Assembly: GCF_003731765.1 (NCBI RefSeq) | Contig: NZ_MOAL01000004.1 | Span: forward strand, 2,480,001-2,544,000 | Source of the DNA: Pseudomonas chlororaphis | GTDB lineage: Bacteria > Pseudomonadota > Gammaproteobacteria > Pseudomonadales > Pseudomonadaceae | Direction: 5' to 3' | Length of the DNA: 64,000 nt | Shown here: one piece after another, positions 49,150 through 61,560 of the stretch | Position numbering within the stretch: position 1 is the first letter of the stretch | Layout of the letters: each line of letters opens with the position of its first letter | Notes under the pieces: model-generated | The model's input: only the letters and a program-made list of their open reading frames with translations | What the model was told of the DNA's origin: nothing | The model's database searches: none | Program-made: the position numbers and the translations under genes

Positions 49150-49182
49150 GTGACCCTTTTACCCTCGAAAAATGGAAAAGAC

Positions 49183-50289
49183 ATGAGCCGAAAAAGTGCA
49201 TTTTTCTTCGACGAACTCAGCCTCTGGCACAGCGCCGGCCCCCACGCGCTGATCTTGCCGGTGGGTGGCTGGGTGCAACCTCCAGCCGCCGCCGGGCATG
49301 CCGAATCACCGGAAACCAAACGGCGGCTGAAGAGCCTGCTGGACGTCTCCGGCCTGACCCGACAGCTGCACGTACGCAGTGCCGAGACGGCCACAGAGGA
49401 AGACCTGCTGCGGGTGCACACGCCTGAGTACCTGCAGCGCTTCAAAGCCATGAGCGATGCCGGCGGCGGCCTGCTGGGCCCCAACGCCCCGATTGGCCCT
49501 GGCAGCTACGAGATCGCCACCCTCTCCGCCGGCCTGGCCATGGCCGCGGTCGAGGCCGTGTTGTCCGGCGAAGCCAACAATGCCTACGCCTTGTCCCGTC
49601 CGCCAGGCCACCACTGCCTGGCCGACAGCGCCATGGGCTTTTGTTTCCTGGCCAACATCCCGATCGCCATCGAAGCCGCCAAAGCACGTCTGGGCCTCGG
49701 CAAGGTCGCGGTGATCGACTGGGACGTACACCACGGCAACGGCACCCAATCGATCTTCGAAGAGCGCGGCGATGTACTGACCATTTCCCTGCACCAAGAC
49801 GGCTGCTTCCCGGCCGGATACAGCGGCGACACCGATCGTGGCCGAGGGCCGGGGCTGGGGGCCAACATCAACATCCCCCTGCCCCCGGGCAGCGGTCACG
49901 AGGCGTACCTGTATGCCCTGCAGCGCATCGTCATCCCGGCACTGGAGCAATTCGAACCGGAACTGATCATCGTCGCCTGCGGTTACGACGCCAACGCCGT
50001 CGATCCCCTGGCACGCATGCTGCTGCACAGCGACTCGTTCCGCGAGATGACCCGCCTGGTGCGCACAGCCGCCGAACGCCTCTGTCACGGAAGGCTGGTT
50101 CTGGTGCATGAAGGCGGGTATTCCGAAGCCTACGTGCCGTTCTGCGGGTTGGCGACGATTGAAGAGTTGTCGGGTATCAGGACCGAAGTGATCGACCCGC
50201 TGCTGGAATTCATGCAGTTGCAGCAGCCCAAGGAGGTACTCCTGGCGTTCCAGCGACAGTTGATCGATGGCTTGATCGAGCAACGTTAA
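49183..50289 (+). CDS. Class II histone-deacetylase-like amidohydrolase
   Basis: This 368-aa zinc amidohydrolase starts at ATG 49183 (MSRKSAFFFDELSLWHSAGP), which closely resembles the P. aeruginosa PA3774/HdaH type. Catalytic features are SRPPGHHCLADSAMGFCF (tandem His), VIDWDVHHGNGTQ (Zn Asp/His), CGYDANAVDPLARM (Zn Asp) and the late HEGGYSEAY. The family removes acetyl groups from acetylated polyamines, amines or lysine-like compounds. Its co-localisation with a porin and an MFS carrier suggests that an external acetylated or amide compound is taken up and hydrolysed. Confidence 0.92.
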   Translation: MSRKSAFFFDELSLWHSAGPHALILPVGGWVQPPAAAGHAESPETKRRLKSLLDVSGLTRQLHVRSAETATEEDLLRVHTPEYLQRFKAMSDAGGGLLGPNAPIGPGSYEIATLSAGLAMAAVEAVLSGEANNAYALSRPPGHHCLADSAMGFCFLANIPIAIEAAKARLGLGKVAVIDWDVHHGNGTQSIFEERGDVLTISLHQDGCFPAGYSGDTDRGRGPGLGANINIPLPPGSGHEAYLYALQRIVIPALEQFEPELIIVACGYDANAVDPLARMLLHSDSFREMTRLVRTAAERLCHGRLVLVHEGGYSEAYVPFCGLATIEELSGIRTEVIDPLLEFMQLQQPKEVLLAFQRQLIDGLIEQR

Positions 50290-51719: not shown

Positions 51720-52085
51720 TTACTCGGCCAGCTCGACGTAGCTCGATTCCCCGCCCCCCGTCGCGCCCGACAACCAGCCCCAGACGAAGGCAAGGGTGGT
51801 GCGCCCTGCGTGATCAACACCGACCGTGCCACGCGACCAGCCGGCCAGAATCTCCCCCTCTGTCGTGACGCAGTGATAAAGCAGCTCAATGCTGTCAGGC
51901 CCCGTGGCGCGCCCCACTTGATGCCCCATGCGGATCCGGCCGCCCTGGTAGGTGCTGGAAATGTCATTTCCCTCGACCTGATAATGAAACACCGTGCCGG
52001 TGCCGGAGACCCCGTGGCTGTTGCCCGCGACGGTAAATCGGCGATTGTTCAAGCGCTCGCTGATTGCAGAAAAGGGAGTGTCCAT
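51720..52085 (-). CDS. Small conserved beta-rich protein of unknown function
   Basis: This 121-aa protein (MDTPFSAISERLNNRRFTVA) contains VFHYQVEGNDISSTYQGGRI, then GHQVGRATGPDSIELLYHCV and a C-terminal W-G-W-L-S-G segment. I recognise it as a family often labelled N-acetylglutamate synthase in genomes, but it has no acetyltransferase motif, so that name is unsupported. No signal peptide. It sits between the cyclase and the LysR gene, separated from both. Confidence 0.65.
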   Translation of the reverse strand: MDTPFSAISERLNNRRFTVAGNSHGVSGTGTVFHYQVEGNDISSTYQGGRIRMGHQVGRATGPDSIELLYHCVTTEGEILAGWSRGTVGVDHAGRTTLAFVWGWLSGATGGGESSYVELAE

Positions 52086-52182
52086 AAGTGTCGCGTCCTT
52101 GAGTCGAGAGGTTTTACCAGCCGCAACCTTGCCATGATTTCAGCCGTCCGTTGGGGTCTTTTGCATCACCACCGCCTGGAAC

Positions 52183-53091
52183 TCAACGGGGTTTGAAAGC
52201 AGGCATCTCTTGCAGCAGCATCGTCAGCAAACGGTTGGAGCCCACGCTCAATTGGCGCCCGAGACGACTGATCAGGTGAACCCGCGGGCTGGCAAAGATT
52301 TCATTATGCAAAGGCAGTGTGCACAGGCGGCCGGCCTGCACCTCTTCATCCACCACAAAGGTCGGTAGCAGCGTCACCCCGCCTTGCATGGCATAGCGCT
52401 TGAGCATGGCAATGGTATTGCAGGTCAAGGTGGGGCTGAGCATCAGTCCCAACTGATGCTCGGCCTGGGTCAGTATCTGGCGTATACCAAATGAAACCCC
52501 CGGTAACGCCAAGCGATGGGCATCCAGGCCCGCCAGCGGAATCGGGCCAACGCTTTGGGTCAGGGGATGCTGAGGGTTCACCACCACACAGACCGGCTGG
52601 GGTTGCGAGGCATGGGAGCGGATTTTCGGGTCGGCGGCCGGGTTGAACACCAGGCCTAAATGCGCCTCATCTTCCACGACCTGGCGTATCACCTCGTTGG
52701 TTCCGCACACATTCACCTGAATCTCGATCTTGGGGTACAGCGTGGAAAAGTTGCTGAGCGGGCCCGCCAGCCCATCGATGAAACCCTCCCCCACGGCCAG
52801 GACGACAGAGCCGCTCTGCAGCCCTCTCAATGCCTGCAGCGAATCCAGCAGCAGCTCCTGGTGAGTCAGGCGTTGCCGGTAGTAACCGAGCACCCGATCA
52901 CCGGCCTCCGTAGGCCTCACCCCACGTCGGTGGCGCTCCAGCAGTGGGCTGCCCAGTTCCTGTTCCAACTGCCCTATCTGGCGGCTGACAGCCGATGGCG
53001 CGACGTTGAGGACATCAGCGGCCGCTCGCACGCTGCCCAGCCTGACCGCTTCGAAAAAATAAAGAATCCGCCGATCTTGTACTTGGCTCAT
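52183..53091 (-). CDS. LysR-family regulator
   Basis: This 302-aa regulator starts at ATG 53091 (MSQVQDRRILYFFEAVRLGS). It has the winged HTH VRAAADVLNVAPSAVSRQIG and a LysR substrate-binding domain (LLERHRRGVRPTEAGDRVLG). It is divergent from the serine-acetyltransferase-like gene with 105 bp between the start codons, and so probably controls that operon. The intergenic segment has T-N11-A type sequences such as around ATTGAATTTGCGATTATTGC. Confidence 0.9.
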   Translation of the reverse strand: MSQVQDRRILYFFEAVRLGSVRAAADVLNVAPSAVSRQIGQLEQELGSPLLERHRRGVRPTEAGDRVLGYYRQRLTHQELLLDSLQALRGLQSGSVVLAVGEGFIDGLAGPLSNFSTLYPKIEIQVNVCGTNEVIRQVVEDEAHLGLVFNPAADPKIRSHASQPQPVCVVVNPQHPLTQSVGPIPLAGLDAHRLALPGVSFGIRQILTQAEHQLGLMLSPTLTCNTIAMLKRYAMQGGVTLLPTFVVDEEVQAGRLCTLPLHNEIFASPRVHLISRLGRQLSVGSNRLLTMLLQEMPAFKPR

Positions 53092-53196
53092 GGGCTGCCT
53101 GTGTTGCGTTAAAAGCAACAAAAGATTGAATTTGCGATTATTGCTGGCTCACCTGCGGCGTGTCCATACTCGGTCCATCAGTAACAGGAGATGGAA

Positions 53197-53961
53197 ATGA
53201 GCCCTCTTTGGCAGCGCCTTCGCGACCAAGCCCAGCAGTTAAGCGAACGCAATCCCGTACTGCACGACTACGCAACCAGCCACCTGCTGGCCTATGCCTC
53301 CTTCGAGGCGGCACTCGCCGCAAACCTGGCCCGCCAGCTGCAGGCGCAAGCGAGCAACGTCGCCCTGGAGCCCTGGTTCAAGTCGATCATCGACGCCAAC
53401 CCATCCATTGCCGAGGCCGCAGCCGCGGACATCCAGCACCTGGAAATCGTCAACCCGGCCTGCCCTGACCACCTCACGGCCTTTCTGACGTTCCGCGGCA
53501 TTCAAGCCGTGCAGGCGCACCGCATCGCCCATGCGTTGTGGCGTGAGGGGGACGTGCAAAGCGCAGTGCTGCTGCAGAACTGGGCGGCCAATACCTGGAG
53601 CGTCGACATCCATCCCGCTGCCCGGCTGGGGCAATCGCTGTTCGTCGACCATGGCATTGGCCTGGTGATTGGTGAAACCGCCGTGGTCGAGGATGAAGTC
53701 AGCCTCTGGCACGGCGTCACGCTGGGCAGCACCCTCAGCGAGGCCGGTGACCGACACCCAAAGGTTCGCCGTGGGGCCCTGATTTGCGCAGGCGCCACGG
53801 TTCTCGGAAACATTGAAGTGGGTGCCCAAGCCATCGTCGCGGCCAACTCCGTGGTGCTCAAACCCGTGACCGCGGGGACCGTTGTTGCCGGGGCCCCAGC
53901 CAAGGTGGTCGGCAACGCCCCGGCCGCCCTTGCCACCTTCACCGCTAAATCCAAAGGCTGA
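53197..53961 (+). CDS. Serine O-acetyltransferase-like protein (CysE/SrpH type)
   Basis: This 254-aa protein has an N-terminal helical domain and a left-handed beta-helix. RGIQAVQAHRIAHALWREGD, VDIHPAARLGQSLFVDHGIG and ETAVVEDEVSLWHGVTLGST are CysE hallmarks, including the catalytic Asp-His pairs. ATG 53197 is preferred to 53191, where AGGAG would abut the start. It acetylates L-serine (O-acetylserine for cysteine synthesis) or a related hydroxyl. Its place as first gene of a catabolic operon, without a cysteine synthase, is unusual. Confidence 0.88.
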   Translation: MSPLWQRLRDQAQQLSERNPVLHDYATSHLLAYASFEAALAANLARQLQAQASNVALEPWFKSIIDANPSIAEAAAADIQHLEIVNPACPDHLTAFLTFRGIQAVQAHRIAHALWREGDVQSAVLLQNWAANTWSVDIHPAARLGQSLFVDHGIGLVIGETAVVEDEVSLWHGVTLGSTLSEAGDRHPKVRRGALICAGATVLGNIEVGAQAIVAANSVVLKPVTAGTVVAGAPAKVVGNAPAALATFTAKSKG

Positions 53962-53976
53962 CCAGGAGCTACCACC

Positions 53977-54867
53977 ATGACCGCCGTCGCTCAATTTCCG
54001 CAGGGTATCGATCACCCCTTGGTCACCGTGCGTCATCACGCCGAGGCCTTGGAGCTGTACCGCAAGATGGGGTTTTCGCCTTCGCCGGTGAGCTATCACC
54101 CCTGGGGCAGCGTCACCTCCTTGATGATGTTCCCCAGCAACTTCATCGAGCTGATCGGTGTCGACGACCCTTCGAAGTTCGGTACCAACTCGGTGAACGG
54201 CTTCTGTTTCGGGCGCCAGCTCGGGCAGTTCCTTGATCGCGGCGAGGAAGGTGTGTCGTTGGTGGCGCTGCACAGCCAGGATGCCGACGCCGATCATGCG
54301 CGGATGGTCGAGTCCGGGCTGGAAAGCCAGGGCCGCATTGATTTTCGCCGCCCTATGACCCTGCCTGATGGGCGCCCCGATGAAGCCGTGGTGTCCCTGG
54401 CGCTGTTCATCGACCCGGAGTTACCCGACGCCTCCAACTTTATCTGCCACCAACATCGCCCCGAACTGATCTGGGTTCGCGGCTGGCAGGACCACCCCAA
54501 CGGGGCAGACGGGATTCTCGCCATCACGTACCTGGCAGACCCCAAGCGCCTTGAACCTCGCTGGCGAGCCCTCTACGGCGATGCCGTGAGCTACAACGGG
54601 GCGGTGCTGGAAGCCGATACCCGATGCGGCGTCTTGCGCGCCATCGACGCCGCCACCGCGGCCCTGGAGTTCCCGGGTATCGCCCTTCCCAAGCGTGCCG
54701 AGGAGCGCCCCCATGGGATTTCCATCCGCCTGCACACCCGAAGCCTGAGCGCCCTGCGCTCGATCCTCGAACACAACCAGGTTCCTCATCACGAGGTCCC
54801 GGGCCGGGTCTTGGTCGAGCCGCAAGCGGCCGGCAACGTCATCCTCGAATTCGTGCAGAACATCTAA
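53977..54867 (+). CDS. VOC-family glyoxalase-like protein
   Basis: This 296-aa protein has a two-module vicinal-oxygen-chelate layout: GIDHPLVTVRHHAEALELYR, then LMMFPSNFIELIGVDDPSKF, and a second half with GILAITYLADPKRLEPRWRA. The Glyoxalase_3-like subgroup has uncertain chemistry; members could be ring-cleavage dioxygenases, isomerases or lyases. It lies 15 bp after the acetyltransferase gene and 14 bp before the dehydrogenase, so is clearly in the operon. Confidence 0.82.
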   Translation: MTAVAQFPQGIDHPLVTVRHHAEALELYRKMGFSPSPVSYHPWGSVTSLMMFPSNFIELIGVDDPSKFGTNSVNGFCFGRQLGQFLDRGEEGVSLVALHSQDADADHARMVESGLESQGRIDFRRPMTLPDGRPDEAVVSLALFIDPELPDASNFICHQHRPELIWVRGWQDHPNGADGILAITYLADPKRLEPRWRALYGDAVSYNGAVLEADTRCGVLRAIDAATAALEFPGIALPKRAEERPHGISIRLHTRSLSALRSILEHNQVPHHEVPGRVLVEPQAAGNVILEFVQNI

Positions 54868-54881
54868 CTGAGACTGTTGAA

Positions 54882-55772
54882 ATGACCATGAAAGTAGGCG
54901 TTATTGGATTGGGCAATATGGGCGGCGGCATGGCCGCGACCCTCGCCGGCAAAGGCTTTGATGTCAGCGGATTCGACCTGTCCGACGCGGCGCTGGCCCA
55001 GGCCAAAGGCAAAGGTGTCCAACCCGTCGGCGACCGCCATCAACTGATTCAACAGTCGGATATGTTGATTCTGTCGCTGCCAAAAGCCGAGCACGTGGAA
55101 GCCGTCTGCCTGGGCCCAGGCGGCGTCATCGAGTTTGGCCGTGAAGGCTTGATCGTGGTTGACACCACCACCTCCACCCCGGAAGCCAGCCGCAAGGTCG
55201 CTGCCGCCCTGGCAAGGATGGGCATCGCCTTTATCGACGCGCCGGTCTCCGGGGGGCCCAAAGGGGCCGCGACCGGCACCATGTCCATGGTCATCGGTGC
55301 CGAGGATGGGGACCTGCAACGCGCCATGCCGGTGCTGGAAGGCATGAGCGGCACCCGCGTCCACGTCGGCAAATGTGGCGCCGGCAACGTGGCCAAGATC
55401 GCCAACAACATGCTGGCTGCCTGTCACCTGATCAGCACCGCCGAAGCCGTGTCGATGGCCGCGAAAGCAGGCGTGGACCCGGAAAAGCTCCTGCAAGGAC
55501 TCAACGCCGGCTCGGGCCGCAGCGGCGCCACCCAGATCATGTTCCCCACCTGGGTCCTGAACAAAGCCTATGACTCCGGCTTCACCATGGGGTTGATGCG
55601 TAAAGACGTCGGCCTTGCCAGCGACCTGGCCGACAGCCTGGACCTGGATCTGCCCCTGTCACGGATCGTCGCCCAGCTATGGCAAGCCAGCCGCGAATCG
55701 CTGCCCGATAACGAAGACTTTTGCGCGATTGTCCAGCGCACCGACGCCCAGCTTTTCGGCCGTGGAGAATAA
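54882..55772 (+). CDS. Beta-hydroxyacid dehydrogenase (3-hydroxyisobutyrate dehydrogenase-like)
   Basis: This 296-aa NAD(P)-dependent enzyme starts at ATG 54882 (MTMKVGVIGLGNMGGGMAAT), with the glycine-rich GLGNMG. FIDAPVSGGPKGAATGTMSM is the substrate-binding signature. The catalytic lysine lies in GNVAKIANNM. Family members oxidise 3-hydroxyisobutyrate, tartronate semialdehyde and related beta-hydroxyacids. It is followed 3 bp later by an aldehyde dehydrogenase that could take the resulting semialdehyde. Confidence 0.88.
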   Translation: MTMKVGVIGLGNMGGGMAATLAGKGFDVSGFDLSDAALAQAKGKGVQPVGDRHQLIQQSDMLILSLPKAEHVEAVCLGPGGVIEFGREGLIVVDTTTSTPEASRKVAAALARMGIAFIDAPVSGGPKGAATGTMSMVIGAEDGDLQRAMPVLEGMSGTRVHVGKCGAGNVAKIANNMLAACHLISTAEAVSMAAKAGVDPEKLLQGLNAGSGRSGATQIMFPTWVLNKAYDSGFTMGLMRKDVGLASDLADSLDLDLPLSRIVAQLWQASRESLPDNEDFCAIVQRTDAQLFGRGE

Positions 55773-55775
55773 TCA

Positions 55776-57293
55776 ATGAGCACGCAAAACATCCTCGACC
55801 TGATGCGCCCCTTCTGGGGTGACCGGAGCGTGATCGGCAGCTTTGTCGGTGGTGAGTTCATCGACGGTCACGGCTCGCCGGTGGACGTTCGCAACGCCCA
55901 TGACGACAGTCTGCTGCTGAGTTTTCCCGACGCTGATGACGCGCTGATTGCCCACACCGACGCCGTAGCCAAGGCCGCACAGGCGCAATGGTGGGCGCTC
56001 ACGGCACAGGCACGGGGTCGTGCGATGTACCAGGTCGGCGCGCTTATTCGCGAACACAGCGACAGCCTGGCCCAGGTTGAATCCCTCACCGCCAATAAAC
56101 CGATCCGTGACGCCCGGGTCGAGGTGACCAAGGTCGCCGAAATGTTCGAGTACTACGCGGGCTGGGCAGACAAACTGCACGGCGAAGTGATCCCCGTGCC
56201 GACCTCACACCTGAACTACGTCACGTACGAGCCCCTGGGCACGGTCCTGCAAATCACCCCGTGGAATGCACCGATCTTTACCTGCGGCTGGCAGATCGCA
56301 CCGGCGATCGCGGCGGGTAACGCGGTCATTCTCAAGCCCTCCGAGCTGACGGCCTTGTCGTCATTGATGATCGCGGTGTTGATCGAGCGCGCCGGCGTGC
56401 CCAAAGGGCTGGTCAACATCATCGCCGGCTTCGGTCACACCATCGGCCAAGGCTTCATCGCCAAGGCAGACATCCGCAAAGTGGTGTTTGTCGGCTCGCC
56501 AGCGACAGGACGGCACATCGCCGTCGCCGCCGCGCAACGTTGCATCCCTGCCGTGCTGGAGTTGGGCGGCAAATCGGCAAACATCGTGTTCGAGGACGCG
56601 GACCTGGACGTCGCCCTGCGCGGGGCGCAGGCCGCGATCTTCTCCGGGGCCGGCCAGAGTTGTGTCTCGGGCTCGCGATTGCTGGTTCAGGCGTCGATCT
56701 TTGACACGTTCACCCAGGCCCTGGCGCAAGCGGCCACGAACTTCAAGGTCGGCGACCCGAGCGACCCTGAGACTCAAATCGGCCCGATCAACAACGCCAA
56801 ACAGTACAACCACGTAAAAACCATGGTCGAGGGTGCACTCAAAGACGGTGCCAGGCTGGTCGGCGCGAATGCCAACCCCATCCCGGACAGGCCGGGGTAT
56901 TACATCAACCCAACGGTGTTGGCCGGCACCAACGACTTGTACTGCGCGCAAGAGGAAATCTTCGGGCCGGTGGTTGTGGCCATCCCGTTCACGGACGAAG
57001 CCGACGCGATCCGCATTGCCAATGACAGTCGCTTCGGCTTGGCCGGGGGGGTCTGGACCCGCGACGTCGGTCGAGCCCACCGAGTGGCCAGGCAGGTTCG
57101 CGCAGGGACCTTCTGGATCAACGGCTACAAGACGATTCACGTCAGCTCGCCCTTCGGTGGCTACGGCGAAAGTGGCTACGGTCGCTCTTCCGGGCTGGAT
57201 GCGTTGCGCGAATACAGCGAAGTGAAAAGCGTGTGGGTCGAAACCGCCGCCACGCCCGCGGTCAATTTCGGCTACGGCGCGAGCCTGGAGTGA
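55776..57293 (+). CDS. NAD-dependent aldehyde dehydrogenase
   Basis: This 505-aa ALDH contains LQITPWNAPIFTCGWQIAPA, glutamate in VLELGGKSANIVFED, cysteine in GAGQSCVSGSRLLVQ and the C-terminal VSSPFGGYGESGYGRSSGLD. It resembles broad-specificity betaine/semialdehyde-type dehydrogenases; there is no CoA-binding signature of methylmalonate-semialdehyde dehydrogenase. It lies 3 bp after the beta-hydroxyacid dehydrogenase, so the two probably act in sequence (hydroxyacid to semialdehyde to acid). Confidence 0.88.
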   Translation: MSTQNILDLMRPFWGDRSVIGSFVGGEFIDGHGSPVDVRNAHDDSLLLSFPDADDALIAHTDAVAKAAQAQWWALTAQARGRAMYQVGALIREHSDSLAQVESLTANKPIRDARVEVTKVAEMFEYYAGWADKLHGEVIPVPTSHLNYVTYEPLGTVLQITPWNAPIFTCGWQIAPAIAAGNAVILKPSELTALSSLMIAVLIERAGVPKGLVNIIAGFGHTIGQGFIAKADIRKVVFVGSPATGRHIAVAAAQRCIPAVLELGGKSANIVFEDADLDVALRGAQAAIFSGAGQSCVSGSRLLVQASIFDTFTQALAQAATNFKVGDPSDPETQIGPINNAKQYNHVKTMVEGALKDGARLVGANANPIPDRPGYYINPTVLAGTNDLYCAQEEIFGPVVVAIPFTDEADAIRIANDSRFGLAGGVWTRDVGRAHRVARQVRAGTFWINGYKTIHVSSPFGGYGESGYGRSSGLDALREYSEVKSVWVETAATPAVNFGYGASLE

Positions 57294-57298
57294 ACGCC

Positions 57299-58456
57299 AT
57301 GTCGATTTCCAAAGCCTTGATCGACGATGCCATCGGCTGGCGTCGGGACTTTCATGCCTCACCCGAACTCGGCTATGACGAGTTGCAGACCTCCGACCGG
57401 GTGGCACAGCTCCTGGAAAGCTTTGGGATCGAGGTGAATCGCGGGCTCGGCGGCACCGGTGTGGTGGGCACCCTGAGCCATGGACAGGGCCCGGCGATCG
57501 GCATTCGAGCCGACATGGACGCCCTGCCCATCCAAGAGTTGGGGCAGTGCCCCCACCAGTCGACGCATCAAGGCTGCATGCACGCCTGCGGTCATGACGG
57601 GCACACGGCAATCTTGCTCGCCACCGCTCGCCATTTGAGTGAGACACGGAATTTCAGCGGAACCGTCCACTTCGTCTTCCAACCCGCCGAGGAAGGTCTC
57701 GCGGGGGCGAAAAAAATGATCGAGGATGGCCTGTTCGAGCAGTTCCCCATGGACGCCATCTATGGGCTGCACAACTGGCCAGGCGCCCAGGCCGGTCAGG
57801 TGGTGATCAATCCAGGCCCGATGATGGCGTCCCTCGACACGTTCGTAATCACCCTGACGGGCCAAGGCTGCCACGCGGCGATGCCCGACAAAGGCGCGGA
57901 CCCCATCATCGCCGCGGCGGAGCTGATTCTTGCCCTGCAAACCATTCCCTCTCGACGTCTCTCACCCCTCGACAGTGCGGTGATCAGCGTGACCCAGATC
58001 AACGCAGGCGAAGCAATCAACGTGATTCCCGAAACGGCGGTGCTCAAGGGAACCGTGCGTTGCTTGCAATCGCACGTCCGCGATCACGTCCAACAGTTGA
58101 TCGGTCAGTTCGTCGAGCAGTTGCCTGGCGCTTTCGGCATCCGAGGGGAATTGCTCTACCAGGTCGGCTACCCGGTGACGGAAAACCATGCAGAGGCTGC
58201 GGCAAAGGTCCGCCGGGCAGCGGTAACGGCGGTGGGAGAGTCGCGCGTGCAGTGGGGTTGCAGCCCCTCCATGGCCTCGGAAGACTTCTCGTTCATGCTC
58301 AAAGCCTGCCCAGGTGCCTACCTGTGGATGGGCGCGGATGGAGAGAAACCCTCTGCGGCCTTGCACAACCCCTATTACGACTTCAATGACCAGATCATTG
58401 AACCGGCAGTCGCCGTCTGGACCCGCTTGGTCGAGCAATCTCTGCCAGCCGTTTAA
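57299..58456 (+). CDS. M20-family amidohydrolase
   Basis: This 385-aa metallopeptidase-fold enzyme starts at ATG 57299 (MSISKALIDDAIGWRRDFHA). It has GIRADMDALPIQE, the metal-binding MHACGHDGHTAILLAT, FQPAEEGLAGAKKMIEDGLF, and MASEDFSFML near the C-terminus. It belongs to the hippurate/N-acyl-amino-acid/IAA-amino-acid hydrolase branch and should release an amino acid from an N-acyl conjugate. It is the last enzyme of the LysR-linked operon, 5 bp after the ALDH stop. Confidence 0.9.
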   Translation: MSISKALIDDAIGWRRDFHASPELGYDELQTSDRVAQLLESFGIEVNRGLGGTGVVGTLSHGQGPAIGIRADMDALPIQELGQCPHQSTHQGCMHACGHDGHTAILLATARHLSETRNFSGTVHFVFQPAEEGLAGAKKMIEDGLFEQFPMDAIYGLHNWPGAQAGQVVINPGPMMASLDTFVITLTGQGCHAAMPDKGADPIIAAAELILALQTIPSRRLSPLDSAVISVTQINAGEAINVIPETAVLKGTVRCLQSHVRDHVQQLIGQFVEQLPGAFGIRGELLYQVGYPVTENHAEAAAKVRRAAVTAVGESRVQWGCSPSMASEDFSFMLKACPGAYLWMGADGEKPSAALHNPYYDFNDQIIEPAVAVWTRLVEQSLPAV

Positions 58457-58525
58457 GCCACAAAGAGCCGTACATTCCCGATGAATCCGGCCTCCTGGGG
58501 CCGACATAACAATAAGAGACAACCT

Positions 58526-58570
58526 ATGCCAAACAACAAAAAGAACCACCGTCCTGGCTGGGTCCCCTGA
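58526..58570 (+). CDS. Possible 14-aa leader peptide
   Basis: ATG to TGA encodes MPNNKKNHRPGWVP, preceded by AAGAGA at about 9 bases. It lies in the 233-bp gap between the amidohydrolase and binding-protein genes. Basic residues followed by proline-rich HRPGWVP could slow ribosomes, so a translational leader is possible. It may equally be chance. Confidence 0.3.
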   Translation: MPNNKKNHRPGWVP

Positions 58571-58689
58571 CGACCCACTCTTGTTTCTGCCCTCCAGATT
58601 TGCAGTTCAACACAGCGCCGACATTGGGTGCTCAGGCCCCCCTGCGCGTTGATTTGGCACTTACCCGCCACCCACACGAGAGCATTGCC

Positions 58690-59730
58690 ATGAAACGAGA
58701 AAGAACGCTGTTGAAAGGGGCTTCGACCTTAGCGTGCATGACCCTCGGCACGCTGTTTACCCTGAGCGCCAACGCCGGCGCCACCCTTGAGAACGTCAAA
58801 AGCAAAGGGTTTGTGCAGTGCGGCATCAGCGACGGCCTTCCGGGGTTTTCCTATGCCGACGCCAAAGGTGACTTTCACGGGTTCGACGTCGACGTGTGTC
58901 GGGCCGTGGCCGCTGCCGTGTTCGGCGACGCAAAGAAGGTCAAGTACACCCAGTTGACCGCCAAGGAGCGCTTTACTGCCCTGCAATCGGGCGAAGTCGA
59001 CATGCTGTCCCGAAGCACCACCTGGACCTCGTCCCGCGACGGCGCCATGGGTATCCAGTTCACCAGTGTCGCCTACTACGATGGCCAGGGATTCCTGGTC
59101 AATAAAAAGCTCGGGGTGAAAAGCGCCAAGGAGCTGGACGGCGCCACCTTCTGCATCCAGGCCGGCACGGTGACCGAGCTGAACCTGTCGGACTACTTCC
59201 GCAGCAACGGCATGAAGTACACCCCCATCACCTTCGACACCTCTGACGAGAGCTTCAAGGCGCTGGAATCAGGACGTTGTGATGTGCTGACCACCGACCA
59301 GTCGCAGCTGTACGGCCAGCGCCTGAAACTGGCAACGCCCGATGACTTCGTTGTGCTTCCCGAGGTGATTTCGAAGGAACCATTGACCCCCGCAGTACGC
59401 CGTGGCGATGAAGACTGGTTCACCGTGGTGCGCTGGTCCCTCGCCGCCATGCTCAACGCCGAAGAACTGGGCATCACCTCGAAAAACGTCAACGAGCAGC
59501 TCAAGTCGTCGAAGAATCCCGACATTGCGCGACTACTCGGAACGGAAGGTGCCCTCGGCAAGGACCTGAATCTGCCCAATGACTGGGCGGCGAAAATCAT
59601 TGCCCAGGTCGGTAACTACGGTGAGTCCTTCGACCGCAACCTGGGCAGCGGCAGTGACATGAAGATCAAGCGCGGCCTCAACGCGCTGTGGAGCCAGGGC
59701 GGCCTGCAATACGCCCCGCCCGTTCGCTGA
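58690..59730 (+). CDS. Amino acid ABC transporter periplasmic binding protein (AapJ/BztA-like)
   Basis: This 346-aa protein starts at ATG 58690 (MKRERTLLKGASTLACMTLG) with a signal peptide cleaved near ANA-GATLE. FVQCGISDGLPGFSYADAKG, DFHGFDVDVCRAVAAAVFGD and MLSRSTTWTSSRDGAMGIQF follow the general L-amino-acid binding proteins AapJ/BztA. No permease or ATPase genes follow. It either feeds a transporter encoded elsewhere or acts as a stand-alone receptor. It probably binds an amino acid related to the upstream amidohydrolase substrate or product. Confidence 0.88.
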   Translation: MKRERTLLKGASTLACMTLGTLFTLSANAGATLENVKSKGFVQCGISDGLPGFSYADAKGDFHGFDVDVCRAVAAAVFGDAKKVKYTQLTAKERFTALQSGEVDMLSRSTTWTSSRDGAMGIQFTSVAYYDGQGFLVNKKLGVKSAKELDGATFCIQAGTVTELNLSDYFRSNGMKYTPITFDTSDESFKALESGRCDVLTTDQSQLYGQRLKLATPDDFVVLPEVISKEPLTPAVRRGDEDWFTVVRWSLAAMLNAEELGITSKNVNEQLKSSKNPDIARLLGTEGALGKDLNLPNDWAAKIIAQVGNYGESFDRNLGSGSDMKIKRGLNALWSQGGLQYAPPVR

Positions 59731-59738
59731 CAAGGCGT

Positions 59739-59762
59739 TGCCCGGCAGCTTGCTGCCGGGCA
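59739..59762 (+). terminator. Hairpin after the binding-protein gene
   Basis: TGCCCGGCAG, loop CTTG, CTGCCGGGCA: ten perfect pairs starting 9 bp after the stop. Only a weak T-tract (CCCTTT) follows. Confidence 0.6.
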
Positions 59763-60042
59763 CTGACCCTTTGGGTTGATTCTTTGGAAAGACGTCACCC
59801 CCAACTCACACACCACACTCTGAAAATGCCGGATTGACAGACCCTTCACCCCGCCTCTGAAAAAACTCCCCCCTTTTGCTGTTCTAACGCCCACATTTTT
59901 CAATGCCAAGCCCGGGACGCTCTGCCGCACTCTGCAAATGCACGGCATGGCACCGAGCCGAAAACAGCGGGAATCATCTGCAGCGAAGCAGGCATCGCCC
60001 GCTGCACGCGCGCGTGCTTCTACGGGCCACCCATCAGCCTGC

Positions 60043-60057
60043 GTTCGTTAATCGCAC
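60043..60057 (+). promoter_or_regulatory. PcaR-type operator upstream of pcaI
   Basis: GTTCGTTAATCGCAC differs by one base from GTTCGATAATCGCAC, the site bound by PcaR at the P. putida pcaIJ promoter (recalled from the literature). It lies 160 bp before the pcaI start codon. Confidence 0.7.
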
Positions 60058-60217
60058 GACATCGTATTCAGGACCGCCCTGTCGGGCTCAATGTTTGGCA
60101 ACCTATGCGCAGCTGCCGACACGCGCTTTATGGGCTGTCGGTCCGTTGCCGGAACCTTCCCTGCGCAGCGGGTATTCAGATTGATCGACCCAATCAACAA
60201 AAATAGAGGAGCACGCC

Positions 60218-60910
60218 TTGATCAATAAAACTTTCGAATCCATTGCTGCCGCACTCGATGGCATTGCCGACGGCTCGGTCATCATGGTCGGAGGCTTCGG
60301 CACTGCCGGCATGCCGTCGGCGCTGGTGGATGGCGTCATTGAATCGGGCGCTCGCGACCTGACCATCATCAGCAACAATGCCGGCAACGGTGAAATCGGC
60401 CTGGCGGCGCTGCTCAAAGCCGGGCGGGTTGCCAAAGTGATTTGCTCGTTCCCGCGGCAATCCGATTCCTATGTATTCGACGAGTTGTACCTGGCGGGCA
60501 AGGTGCAACTGGAAGTGGTGCCCCAAGGCAACCTGGCCGAACGCATCCGCGCCGCGGGCTCGGGCATTGGCGCCTTCTTCTCCCCGACCGGCTACGGCAC
60601 CTTGTTGGCCGAAGGCAAGGAAACCCGAGTGATCGAAGGACGCAACTATGTGCTGGAAATGCCGCTGCACGCCGACGTTGCGCTGATCAAGGCCGAACAG
60701 GGTGATCGCTGGGGCAACCTGACCTACCGCAAGGCCGCCCGCAACTTTGGGCCGATCATGGCCATGGCCGCGAAGACCACCATCGCGCAGGTCAACCGGA
60801 TCGTCGAGTTGGGTGATCTGGACCCTGAACACATCATCACGCCGGGGATTTTCGTCCAGCGCGTGGTTGCTGTGCCTTCTGCCAGTTCCCTGATCGCCAA
60901 CGTCAATTGA
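60218..60910 (+). CDS. pcaI: 3-oxoadipate CoA-transferase, alpha subunit
   Basis: This 230-aa protein begins at a TTG start (60218) with AGGAG seven bases upstream, matching the MINKT N-terminus of P. putida PcaI. Long identity stretches include MVGGFGTAGMPSALVDGVIE, IGAFFSPTGYGTLLAEGKET and GDRWGNLTYRKAARNFGPIM. With PcaJ it transfers CoA from succinyl-CoA to 3-oxoadipate, the penultimate step of the beta-ketoadipate pathway for protocatechuate and catechol. As is common in pseudomonads it is not next to the other pca genes. Confidence 0.92.
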   Translation: MINKTFESIAAALDGIADGSVIMVGGFGTAGMPSALVDGVIESGARDLTIISNNAGNGEIGLAALLKAGRVAKVICSFPRQSDSYVFDELYLAGKVQLEVVPQGNLAERIRAAGSGIGAFFSPTGYGTLLAEGKETRVIEGRNYVLEMPLHADVALIKAEQGDRWGNLTYRKAARNFGPIMAMAAKTTIAQVNRIVELGDLDPEHIITPGIFVQRVVAVPSASSLIANVN

Positions 60911-60918
60911 GGCCTGCC

Positions 60919-61560
60919 ATGACCGTCATGAAAAAACTATCGCGCAACGAAATGGCCCAGCGCGTGGCCGACGATATTCTCGAAGGTTCTTATGTGAACC
61001 TGGGCATTGGCGTGCCCACCCTGGTGGCGAACTACCTGGGCGACAAGGAAATATTCCTGCATAGCGAAAATGGCGTGCTGGGCATGGGCCCGAGCCCGGC
61101 GCCCGGTGAAGAAGACGATGACCTGATCAACGCCGGCAAACAGCACGTGACGCTGCTGGCCGGTGGCGCGTATTTCCATCACGCCGACTCGTTCTCGATG
61201 ATGCGCGGTGGCCACATCGATATCGCCGTACTGGGGGCCTTCCAGGTCTCGGTCAACGGCGACCTGGCCAACTGGCACACTGGCGCTGAGGGCTCGATTC
61301 CGGCAGTGGGCGGTGCAATGGACCTGGCCACCGGCGCGCGCCAGGTGTTCGTGATGATGGATCACCTGACCAAGACCGGCGAAAGCAAACTGGTGCCTGA
61401 ATGCACCTACCCGCTCACCGGTATTGGCTGCGTCAGCCGGATTTACACCGACTTGGCGATTCTGGACGTCACCCCGCAAGGCCTGAAGGTGCGCGAGATC
61501 CTCGCGGATATCAGCTTTGAGGACTTGCAGACATTGAGTGGCGTGCCGTTGTTGAAGTAA
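60919..61560 (+). CDS. pcaJ: 3-oxoadipate CoA-transferase, beta subunit
   Basis: This 213-aa protein starts at ATG 60919 (MTVMKKLSRNEMAQRVADDI), with TTGAGG upstream overlapping the pcaI stop. The catalytic glutamate lies in FLHSENGVLGMGPSPAPGEE. VNGDLANWHTGAEGSIPAVG and KLVPECTYPLTGIGCVSRIY follow P. putida PcaJ closely. It forms the heteromeric CoA-transferase with PcaI and is co-transcribed with it, 8 bp apart. A GCAAGCT repeat follows the gene. Confidence 0.92.
   Translation: MTVMKKLSRNEMAQRVADDILEGSYVNLGIGVPTLVANYLGDKEIFLHSENGVLGMGPSPAPGEEDDDLINAGKQHVTLLAGGAYFHHADSFSMMRGGHIDIAVLGAFQVSVNGDLANWHTGAEGSIPAVGGAMDLATGARQVFVMMDHLTKTGESKLVPECTYPLTGIGCVSRIYTDLAILDVTPQGLKVREILADISFEDLQTLSGVPLLK

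Follow-up and report, generated by a model that had tools for sequence, protein, structure and literature searches.

A conserved LysR-associated gene set of Pseudomonas chlororaphis, possibly directed at an amino-blocked, serine-like beta-hydroxyacid

The 64,000-nucleotide stretch of the Pseudomonas chlororaphis contig NZ_MOAL01000004.1 analysed here (positions 2,480,001 to 2,544,000 of the forward strand, hereafter the window) carries five enzyme genes oriented divergently from a LysR-type regulator gene. They encode, in order, a CysE-family acetyltransferase (serine acetyltransferase type, SAT), a two-domain VOC protein, a beta-hydroxyacid dehydrogenase of the HIBADH family, an aldehyde dehydrogenase (ALDH) and an M20 aminoacylase/amidohydrolase (Table 1). 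The initial annotation had described a unit packed with gaps of 3-15 bp, and its open reading frames (ORFs) and families were correctly placed: the successive spacings are 15, 14, 3 and 5 bp, with about 100 bp between LysR and SAT. Its list of five enzymes and a LysR regulator stands, but it had overlooked a binding protein gene, which starts 233 bp beyond M20, and a palindrome located in the LysR-SAT gap. Regarding translation starts, a TTG is listed for LysR at 53121, 10 codons upstream of the ATG at 53091, and the SAT ORF opens at 53191; because AGGAG abuts this ATG, the start at 53197 is the more likely one for SAT.

Table 1. Coordinates of the genes and sequence elements of the locus in the window
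Feature	Position	Strand	Evidence
LysR-type regulator (P0006)	52183..53091	-	PF03466 112.9 bits, PF00126 73.2 bits
Palindrome GTTGC-N7-GCAAC, probable LysR operator	53103..53119		Sole exact match in 64 kb
TGTCCATACTCG, invariant block, possibly promoter	53161..53172	+	Identical in 13/13 aligned Pseudomonas intergenic regions
CysE-family acetyltransferase (SAT), Asn replacing Asp92	53197..53961	+	SATase_N 76.7 bits, hexapeptide 30.9 bits
Two-domain VOC protein	53977..54867	+	PF13468 78.4 bits
HIBADH-family beta-hydroxyacid dehydrogenase	54882..55772	+	PF03446 137.5 bits, PF14833 127.1 bits; TIGR01692 214.1
Aldehyde dehydrogenase (ALDH)	55776..57293	+	PF00171 539.4 bits
M20 aminoacylase/amidohydrolase	57299..58456	+	PF01546 165.3 bits, TIGR01891 358.8 bits
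Lone AapJ-type family-3 binding protein	58690..59730	+	PF00497 64.4 bits

Named-species genomes were searched with a profile of the VOC protein and the best 80 of 99 loci were retained, VOC being present in all of them by construction as the bait. This neighbourhood search, which the initial annotation had suggested for the five-gene set, found all five enzymes together in 33 of the 80 loci. SAT was present in 60, HIBADH in 65, a LysR gene of the matching type in 60 and M20 in 33, and SAT lay immediately ahead of VOC in 56 of the 60 loci holding both. The VOC bait aside, HIBADH-ALDH was the most constant part, and the oxidation of a hydroxyacid to a semialdehyde and then to an acid proposed in the initial annotation is kept. 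Few genomes carry the VOC protein: with the window's genome counted, it occurs in 8 of the 199 examined for the genus and in 4 of the 369 for the class. Its loci are spread over Pseudomonas, Tatumella, Erwinia, Vibrio, Pandoraea, Caballeronia, Paraburkholderia, Oceanospirillaceae, Granulosicoccus and others, the window VOC being 99% identical to that of a Pseudomonas morbosilactucae locus (L035). The composition of the set varies, Pandoraea loci carrying VOC-HIBADH-ALDH without SAT and M20, and Caballeronia-type loci SAT-VOC and HIBADH-ALDH without M20. Many of the compared genomes are related and hence not independent; G896 and G992, apparently one assembly, were counted once, and L132 repeats L061 as L174 repeats L293. 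On this comparative evidence, the operon is a conserved predicted LysR regulon whose gene set is more than a chance association.

In 13 of the 80 loci, from P. syringae-, P. viridiflava- and P. oryzihabitans-type genomes and one Granulosicoccus, SAT-VOC occurred without HIBADH. A search with the HIBADH profile located an operon-type HIBADH elsewhere in all 12 distinct genomes searched (11 Pseudomonas and one Granulosicoccus; L053 left out), at E values of 1e-120 or better. As background, HIBADH of this type was found in 17 of the 398 genomes sampled across the phylum, one of the 17 being the window's genome. The other 10 Pseudomonas genomes in that sample have neither an operon-type HIBADH nor the VOC. 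The same search found a HIBADH on the same contig in Variovorax, one in Wohlfahrtiimonas (VOC without SAT), and only a weaker homologue (2.6e-61) in an Acetobacteraceae metagenome-assembled genome (VOC without SAT); L084, with a HIBADH on its own contig, was for that reason kept out of the in-trans count. In one Pseudoroseomonas strain, SAT-VOC and HIBADH-ALDH are carried by two plasmids, and in A. leguminum SAT-VOC and HIBADH are far apart on one plasmid. It should be noted that the Granulosicoccus SAT-VOC locus ends at a contig edge, and the two halves could be nearer than apparent. This co-occurrence in trans suggests that the SAT-VOC and HIBADH units would be halves of one system.

The palindrome GTTGC-N7-GCAAC was found in 14/14 fused Pseudomonas loci and in 13/13 Pseudomonas SAT-VOC-only loci (12 genomes; 15/17 when other genera are added). 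Among the loci read as having HIBADH in trans, 13 of 15 (one repeated) contained it, the misses being Variovorax and Granulosicoccus; in the latter, a match lies further off, in L326, ahead of an ABC-HIBADH-ALDH-M20 set. The palindrome precedes both halves in the Pseudomonas genomes where the set is split, and it was further detected in four of five Tatumella, Erwinia and Vibrio loci, ahead of DUF3100 genes in alphaproteobacterial loci (e.g. L147 and L154) and ahead of a dipeptide-type ABC-HIBADH-ALDH set in Rhodobacteraceae M382 (L149). Across 129 loci (2.02 Mb), the 7-base spacer gave 84 matches (78 different contexts), compared with 0-9 for spacers of 3-6 and 8-12 bases, and the 29 other permutations of the half-site gave at most 11 matches (median 2). 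The 80 VOC loci hold 42 matches; 35 of them are close to the start of SAT or HIBADH, and 21 of the 35 sit 72-91 bp upstream of it. Genome-wide counts against a reversed control showed no clear enrichment (33 versus 21 in G000, 15 versus 23 in G056 and 21 versus 21 in G050), so the palindrome marks the regulon by position only. Fisher tests on the palindrome used older groupings (14/15; 11/11) of related genomes and are not relied on. As the palindrome has a single exact match in the window, at 53103, and precedes both halves of split sets, it is probably the LysR operator; a LysR gene and an operon diverging from a common promoter region that contains a conserved palindrome, as here, are the arrangement expected for a LysR-type transcriptional regulator. 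A consensus promoter scan of 52000-60300 returned one site, on the LysR strand, versus 1.5 expected by chance, and did not score the TGTCCATACTCG block (53161-53172) as a + strand promoter; a terminator consensus scan gave no more than chance.

A core lacking SAT-VOC recurs in other Proteobacteria, usually together with a DUF3100 membrane protein. Of 32 loci found through HIBADH or ALDH (L150 and L153 left out), 29 contain a LysR of this type, 27 a DUF3100 (PF11299) protein and at least 18 an M20; the M20 count excludes the readings of L192 (several kb away) and L193 (overlapping ALDH). The palindrome was present in 15 of 27 core loci. A few core loci carry a VOC (L133, L154) or SAT-VOC elsewhere in the genome (L146, L174). 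The transporters beside the loci vary between DUF3100, dipeptide-type ABC, AapJ-type ABC, TRAP, ProY/ThrP-like and sodium:alanine symporter types; a search for DUF3100 by name found no paper in the open-licence collection searched. The window's AapJ-type binding protein, 72% identical to a second copy elsewhere in the genome, adjoins the operon in L036, L037, L039 and L041 too, and in Variovorax and A. leguminum the genes that precede SAT-VOC begin with one for a protein of this type; the window protein is probably an accessory of the system. Taken together, the comparisons show that HIBADH-ALDH, M20, transporter and SAT-VOC recur as separable predicted units, one palindrome preceding several of them in many genomes.

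SAT-type enzymes are O-acetyltransferases. The window SAT scores above cut-off for both its SATase_N and hexapeptide domains and retains the catalytic Asp143/His158 and the Arg192/His193 positions (DIHPA, DHG and DRHPK blocks). Among the NCBIfam models, it lies below TIGR01172 (191.2, cut-off 210.65) and NF008349 (232.4, cut-off 397) and above EpsC NF041874 (159.7, cut-off 150). The genome carries two further SAT-like genes, so the operon SAT is probably dispensable for cysteine. The position of E. coli Asp92, a residue that we take to grip the amino group of serine, is occupied by Asn88. The 71 operon SAT rows represent 67 different sequences, four rows repeating a genome, and all but that of A. 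leguminum have Asn here (70 of 71). By contrast, Asp was present in all 63 comparison rows from genome searches (59 different genes) and in 28/28 of a second, partly overlapping set; the window's own SAT (L257) was removed from both sets, and among the 63 rows L195/L255, L196/L256, L197/L258 and L198/L259 are each the same gene twice. No VOC occurred within any comparison SAT locus. The E. coli CysE numbering follows in part the available passages of PMC9547175, in which Asp92 is listed among the serine-pocket residues; the available part of PMC13256707 contains none of the terms 'Asp92', 'D92' and 'amino group'. The operon SATs fall in two clades of the larger tree, which needs two Asn92 origins on the starred branches; a 38-row tree without column 92 did not reject a single origin (p-AU 0.23), and convergence is not claimed. 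The substitution suggests that the substituent X of a substrate HOCH2-CH(X)-COO- would be other than a free ammonium.

GxGxxG, PVSGG and a catalytic Lys are HIBADH-family motifs, and the corresponding residues G9, G11, G14, P121-V-S-G-G125 and K172 are invariant in a 19-row alignment of the dehydrogenase. Its TIGR01692 score (214.1) is below the cut-off of 291.6, outside 3-hydroxyisobutyrate dehydrogenase proper, and its best PDB match is the 2-hydroxymethylglutarate dehydrogenase 3cky (185.7 bits); the P. aeruginosa chains 3obb/3q3c, which are presumably the L-serine 3-dehydrogenase PA0743, match at 148 bits. The M20 protein exceeds the TIGR01891 cut-off (358.8 versus 153.75) and falls under that of NF038260 for the acetyl-diaminobutyrate deacetylase DoeB2 (382.5 versus 550); its top PDB match is B. 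subtilis YxeP (1ysj, 252 bits), narrowly above a plant IAA-amino acid hydrolase (247 bits).

The structure model of the VOC protein (mean pLDDT 93.6) best matched 3p8a (Z 22.1, 3.0 A over 240 residues), itself uncharacterised, and 4-hydroxyphenylpyruvate dioxygenase (HPPD) types fill most of the list (1t47: Z 20.5, 3.0 A over 253). The fold was not retained as a guide to function, as the top match is uncharacterised and an HPPD-type fold does not fix it. Conserved His and Glu columns were found in the VOC alignment. VOC enzymes often act by abstracting a proton beside a carbonyl, and an elimination or epimerisation is proposed on this ground. The VOC was likewise rejected as a sole marker of the set, since remote matches in same-phylum genomes lie mostly among unrelated genes; those of L135-L144 possibly form a different subfamily.

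The SAT and HIBADH families expect HOCH2-CH(X)-COO- and the M20 family an N-acyl amino acid; together with Asn92, these expectations have N-acyl-serine, HOCH2-CH(NH-acyl)-COO-, as their common answer. We tentatively propose, with less than even confidence, that the operon is a LysR-controlled catabolic regulon for an amino-blocked, serine-like beta-hydroxyacid, most likely N-acyl-serine. The compound would enter via DUF3100, a dipeptide-type ABC, AapJ-type or TRAP transporter or an amino-acid permease. M20 would cleave the amide and release serine, which a serine dehydratase could convert to pyruvate, and HIBADH followed by ALDH would oxidise CH2OH to the aldehyde and the acid. SAT and VOC would form an add-on branch to M20/HIBADH/ALDH, in which SAT, with its Asp92 replaced by Asn, would acetylate the same CH2OH of the amino-blocked compound and VOC would act on the SAT product or on an enolisable intermediate, most simply by abstraction of the alpha-proton (acetate elimination or epimerisation). 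The gene neighbourhoods are consistent with such a scheme: amino-acid and dipeptide-type transporters are found near the loci, M20 of A. leguminum has an L-serine ammonia-lyase gene (615.7 bits) downstream of it, on its own strand and preceded by a palindrome, and P. syringae-complex loci have a serine dehydratase gene adjoining or near the operon or M20. Of the serine- or cysteine-like compound put forward in the initial annotation, serine fits the SAT, HIBADH and M20 families and the serine dehydratases close by in two lineages, and modified cysteines found little support. In A. leguminum, a threonylcarbamoyl-AMP synthase-like (Sua5-like) gene (L146:5562-6536) stands between M20 and the ammonia-lyase, and the serine dehydratase gene of L321 and L322 has a DUF3100 gene directly beyond it.

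Several observations weigh against this proposal. Oxidation of an N-acyl-serine would be unusual chemistry. M20 is absent from 47 of the 80 VOC loci, including Pandoraea and Caballeronia, and the exact palindrome was found in 0/6 Pandoraea, 0/8 Caballeronia-type and only 3/13 Oceanospirillaceae-type loci. The contact of Asp92 with the amino group is our assumption, the passages cited above listing it only as a pocket residue, and Asn92 may have arisen once. The serine dehydratase gene of the P. syringae complex runs convergently to M20, next to a LysR-type gene of its own, and lacks the palindrome, so its link may be mere neighbourhood. In favour of the modified-cysteine idea, GNAT genes (L026, L030) and a flavin reductase gene (L030) occur, in other transcription units, near two stand-alone SAT-VOC pairs; a Phyllobacterium locus has a monooxygenase with M20 beside a truncated HIBADH; and in Pantoea agglomerans (L023:2725-6837) a remote VOC (27%) lies by an M20-type amidohydrolase, a luciferase-like monooxygenase and an alkylhydroperoxidase-domain protein.

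An unlikely alternative to N-acyl-serine is that free serine is the substrate, HIBADH acting as a PA0743-like L-serine 3-dehydrogenase that yields aminoacetaldehyde and CO2, ALDH producing glycine, and SAT and M20 only managing acetylated serine. It would agree with the HIBADH family membership, with the small-amino-acid permeases and with the serine dehydratase, Tdh-Kbl or Alr-DadA genes near some core loci, but the replacement of Asp92 argues against the usual binding of free serine, and M20 and the dipeptide-type ABC transporters point to an amide. Similarly improbable is a beta-hydroxy-alpha-amino acid other than serine, e.g. a phenylserine- or threonine-like one. Tdh-Kbl lies near the Psychrobacter core, and the available part of PMC2963168 describes a D-phenylserine dehydrogenase from P. 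syringae NK-15 that was aligned with enzymes of the HIBADH family and is encoded in an operon beside a LysR gene; however, that operon has other partner genes instead, as detailed below, and the ALDH partner of the present set suggests a primary alcohol.

As regards the SAT-VOC branch, a more far-reaching extension of the N-acyl-serine proposal, rather improbable in our estimation, is that a CysE was turned, perhaps twice independently, into an amino-blocked-serine acetyltransferase. O-acetylation would make an acetate leaving group, VOC would eliminate it to give N-acyl-dehydroalanine, and M20 would release 2-aminoacrylate, which would decay to pyruvate and ammonia, a route free of pyridoxal phosphate (PLP) and open to either enantiomer.

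The classical pantothenate route runs in the order amidase, pantoate dehydrogenase, aldehyde dehydrogenase. By analogy, M20 could cut the amide of an N-(hydroxyacyl)-amino acid such as pantothenate, with HIBADH and ALDH oxidising the hydroxyacyl half; this order and the M20 genes found with HIBADH-ALDH in the core loci count for such a substrate, which we nevertheless consider distinctly improbable, as it leaves SAT-VOC and the serine dehydratase unexplained and none of the later route genes showed up among the families scanned, no systematic search for them having been made. The least probable alternative by our estimate, salvage of S-modified cysteines by acetylation and deacetylation of the Bacillus yxe type, can draw on the YxeP match of M20, the kinship of SAT to CysE and the GNAT and flavin reductase genes mentioned above, but SAT-type enzymes O-acetylate, the core exists without SAT, and the window operon has no monooxygenase or GNAT gene, the family scan of neighbours having covered some of the loci. 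For the same reasons, and because M20 often occurs in the core without SAT, the cycle of adding and then removing an acetyl group from modified cysteines suggested in the initial annotation finds little support.

A cluster of five genes that had no assigned role can now be treated as a testable regulon, with its parts listed and a probable operator named. It occurs in Pseudomonas associated with plants, in marine bacteria and in Burkholderiales, and a related core exists in rhizobia and others. DUF3100 membrane proteins and a VOC subfamily of no known function are thereby placed in a genomic context. Asn92 could serve to mark, by a single residue, those CysE-like proteins whose product is probably not O-acetylserine; this would aid annotation and point to an undescribed acetyltransferase reaction.

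Other features were observed around the loci. Upstream of LysR (49150-50289) lies a histone-deacetylase-family gene (PF00850), then a probable GGDEF gene recognised by eye, and downstream of the binding protein (60218-61560) a pair of 3-oxoacid CoA-transferase subunit genes (TIGR02429, TIGR02428). Between M20 and the binding protein, a 14-codon ORF (58526-58570), MPNNKKNHRPGWVP, overlaps a terminator-like stem; a pattern search of the collected loci matched same-species ones only. In L030, the flavin reductase gene (L030:8386-8973) is convergent with the VOC of the stand-alone pair and an aminotransferase gene adjoins. Just upstream of the set in L092 (4338-5528) is a fused methionine sulfoxide reductase (PMSR-SelR) gene, to which clustering relates similar ORFs in L093 and L096.

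No description of the gene set and no characterised orthologous operon were found in the open-licence papers searched, in line with the initial annotation, which could not match it to a known pathway. The set is a new variant built from known kinds of enzymes. The window VOC has the two-domain fold in common with 3p8a and HPPD, at an identity of only 14-15%. HIBADH belongs to the family of the PA0743 L-serine 3-dehydrogenase, a match that comes behind 3cky. The yxe-type salvage of B. subtilis combines an N-acetyltransferase and a monooxygenase with an M20 deacylase; the window operon resembles it in M20, whose top PDB match is YxeP, and lacks the other two. SAT has the SATase_N and hexapeptide domains and the catalytic and Arg-His positions in common with CysE, from which it differs by Asn in place of Asp92 and by its location in a catabolic-looking regulon. 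Finally, the phenylserine operon of P. syringae NK-15 is similar in that LysR is divergent from a HIBADH-like enzyme acting on a beta-hydroxy amino acid, whereas its partners are MFS, short-chain dehydrogenase and IlvD-like genes, with no M20, ALDH, SAT or VOC named in the available part of PMC2963168.

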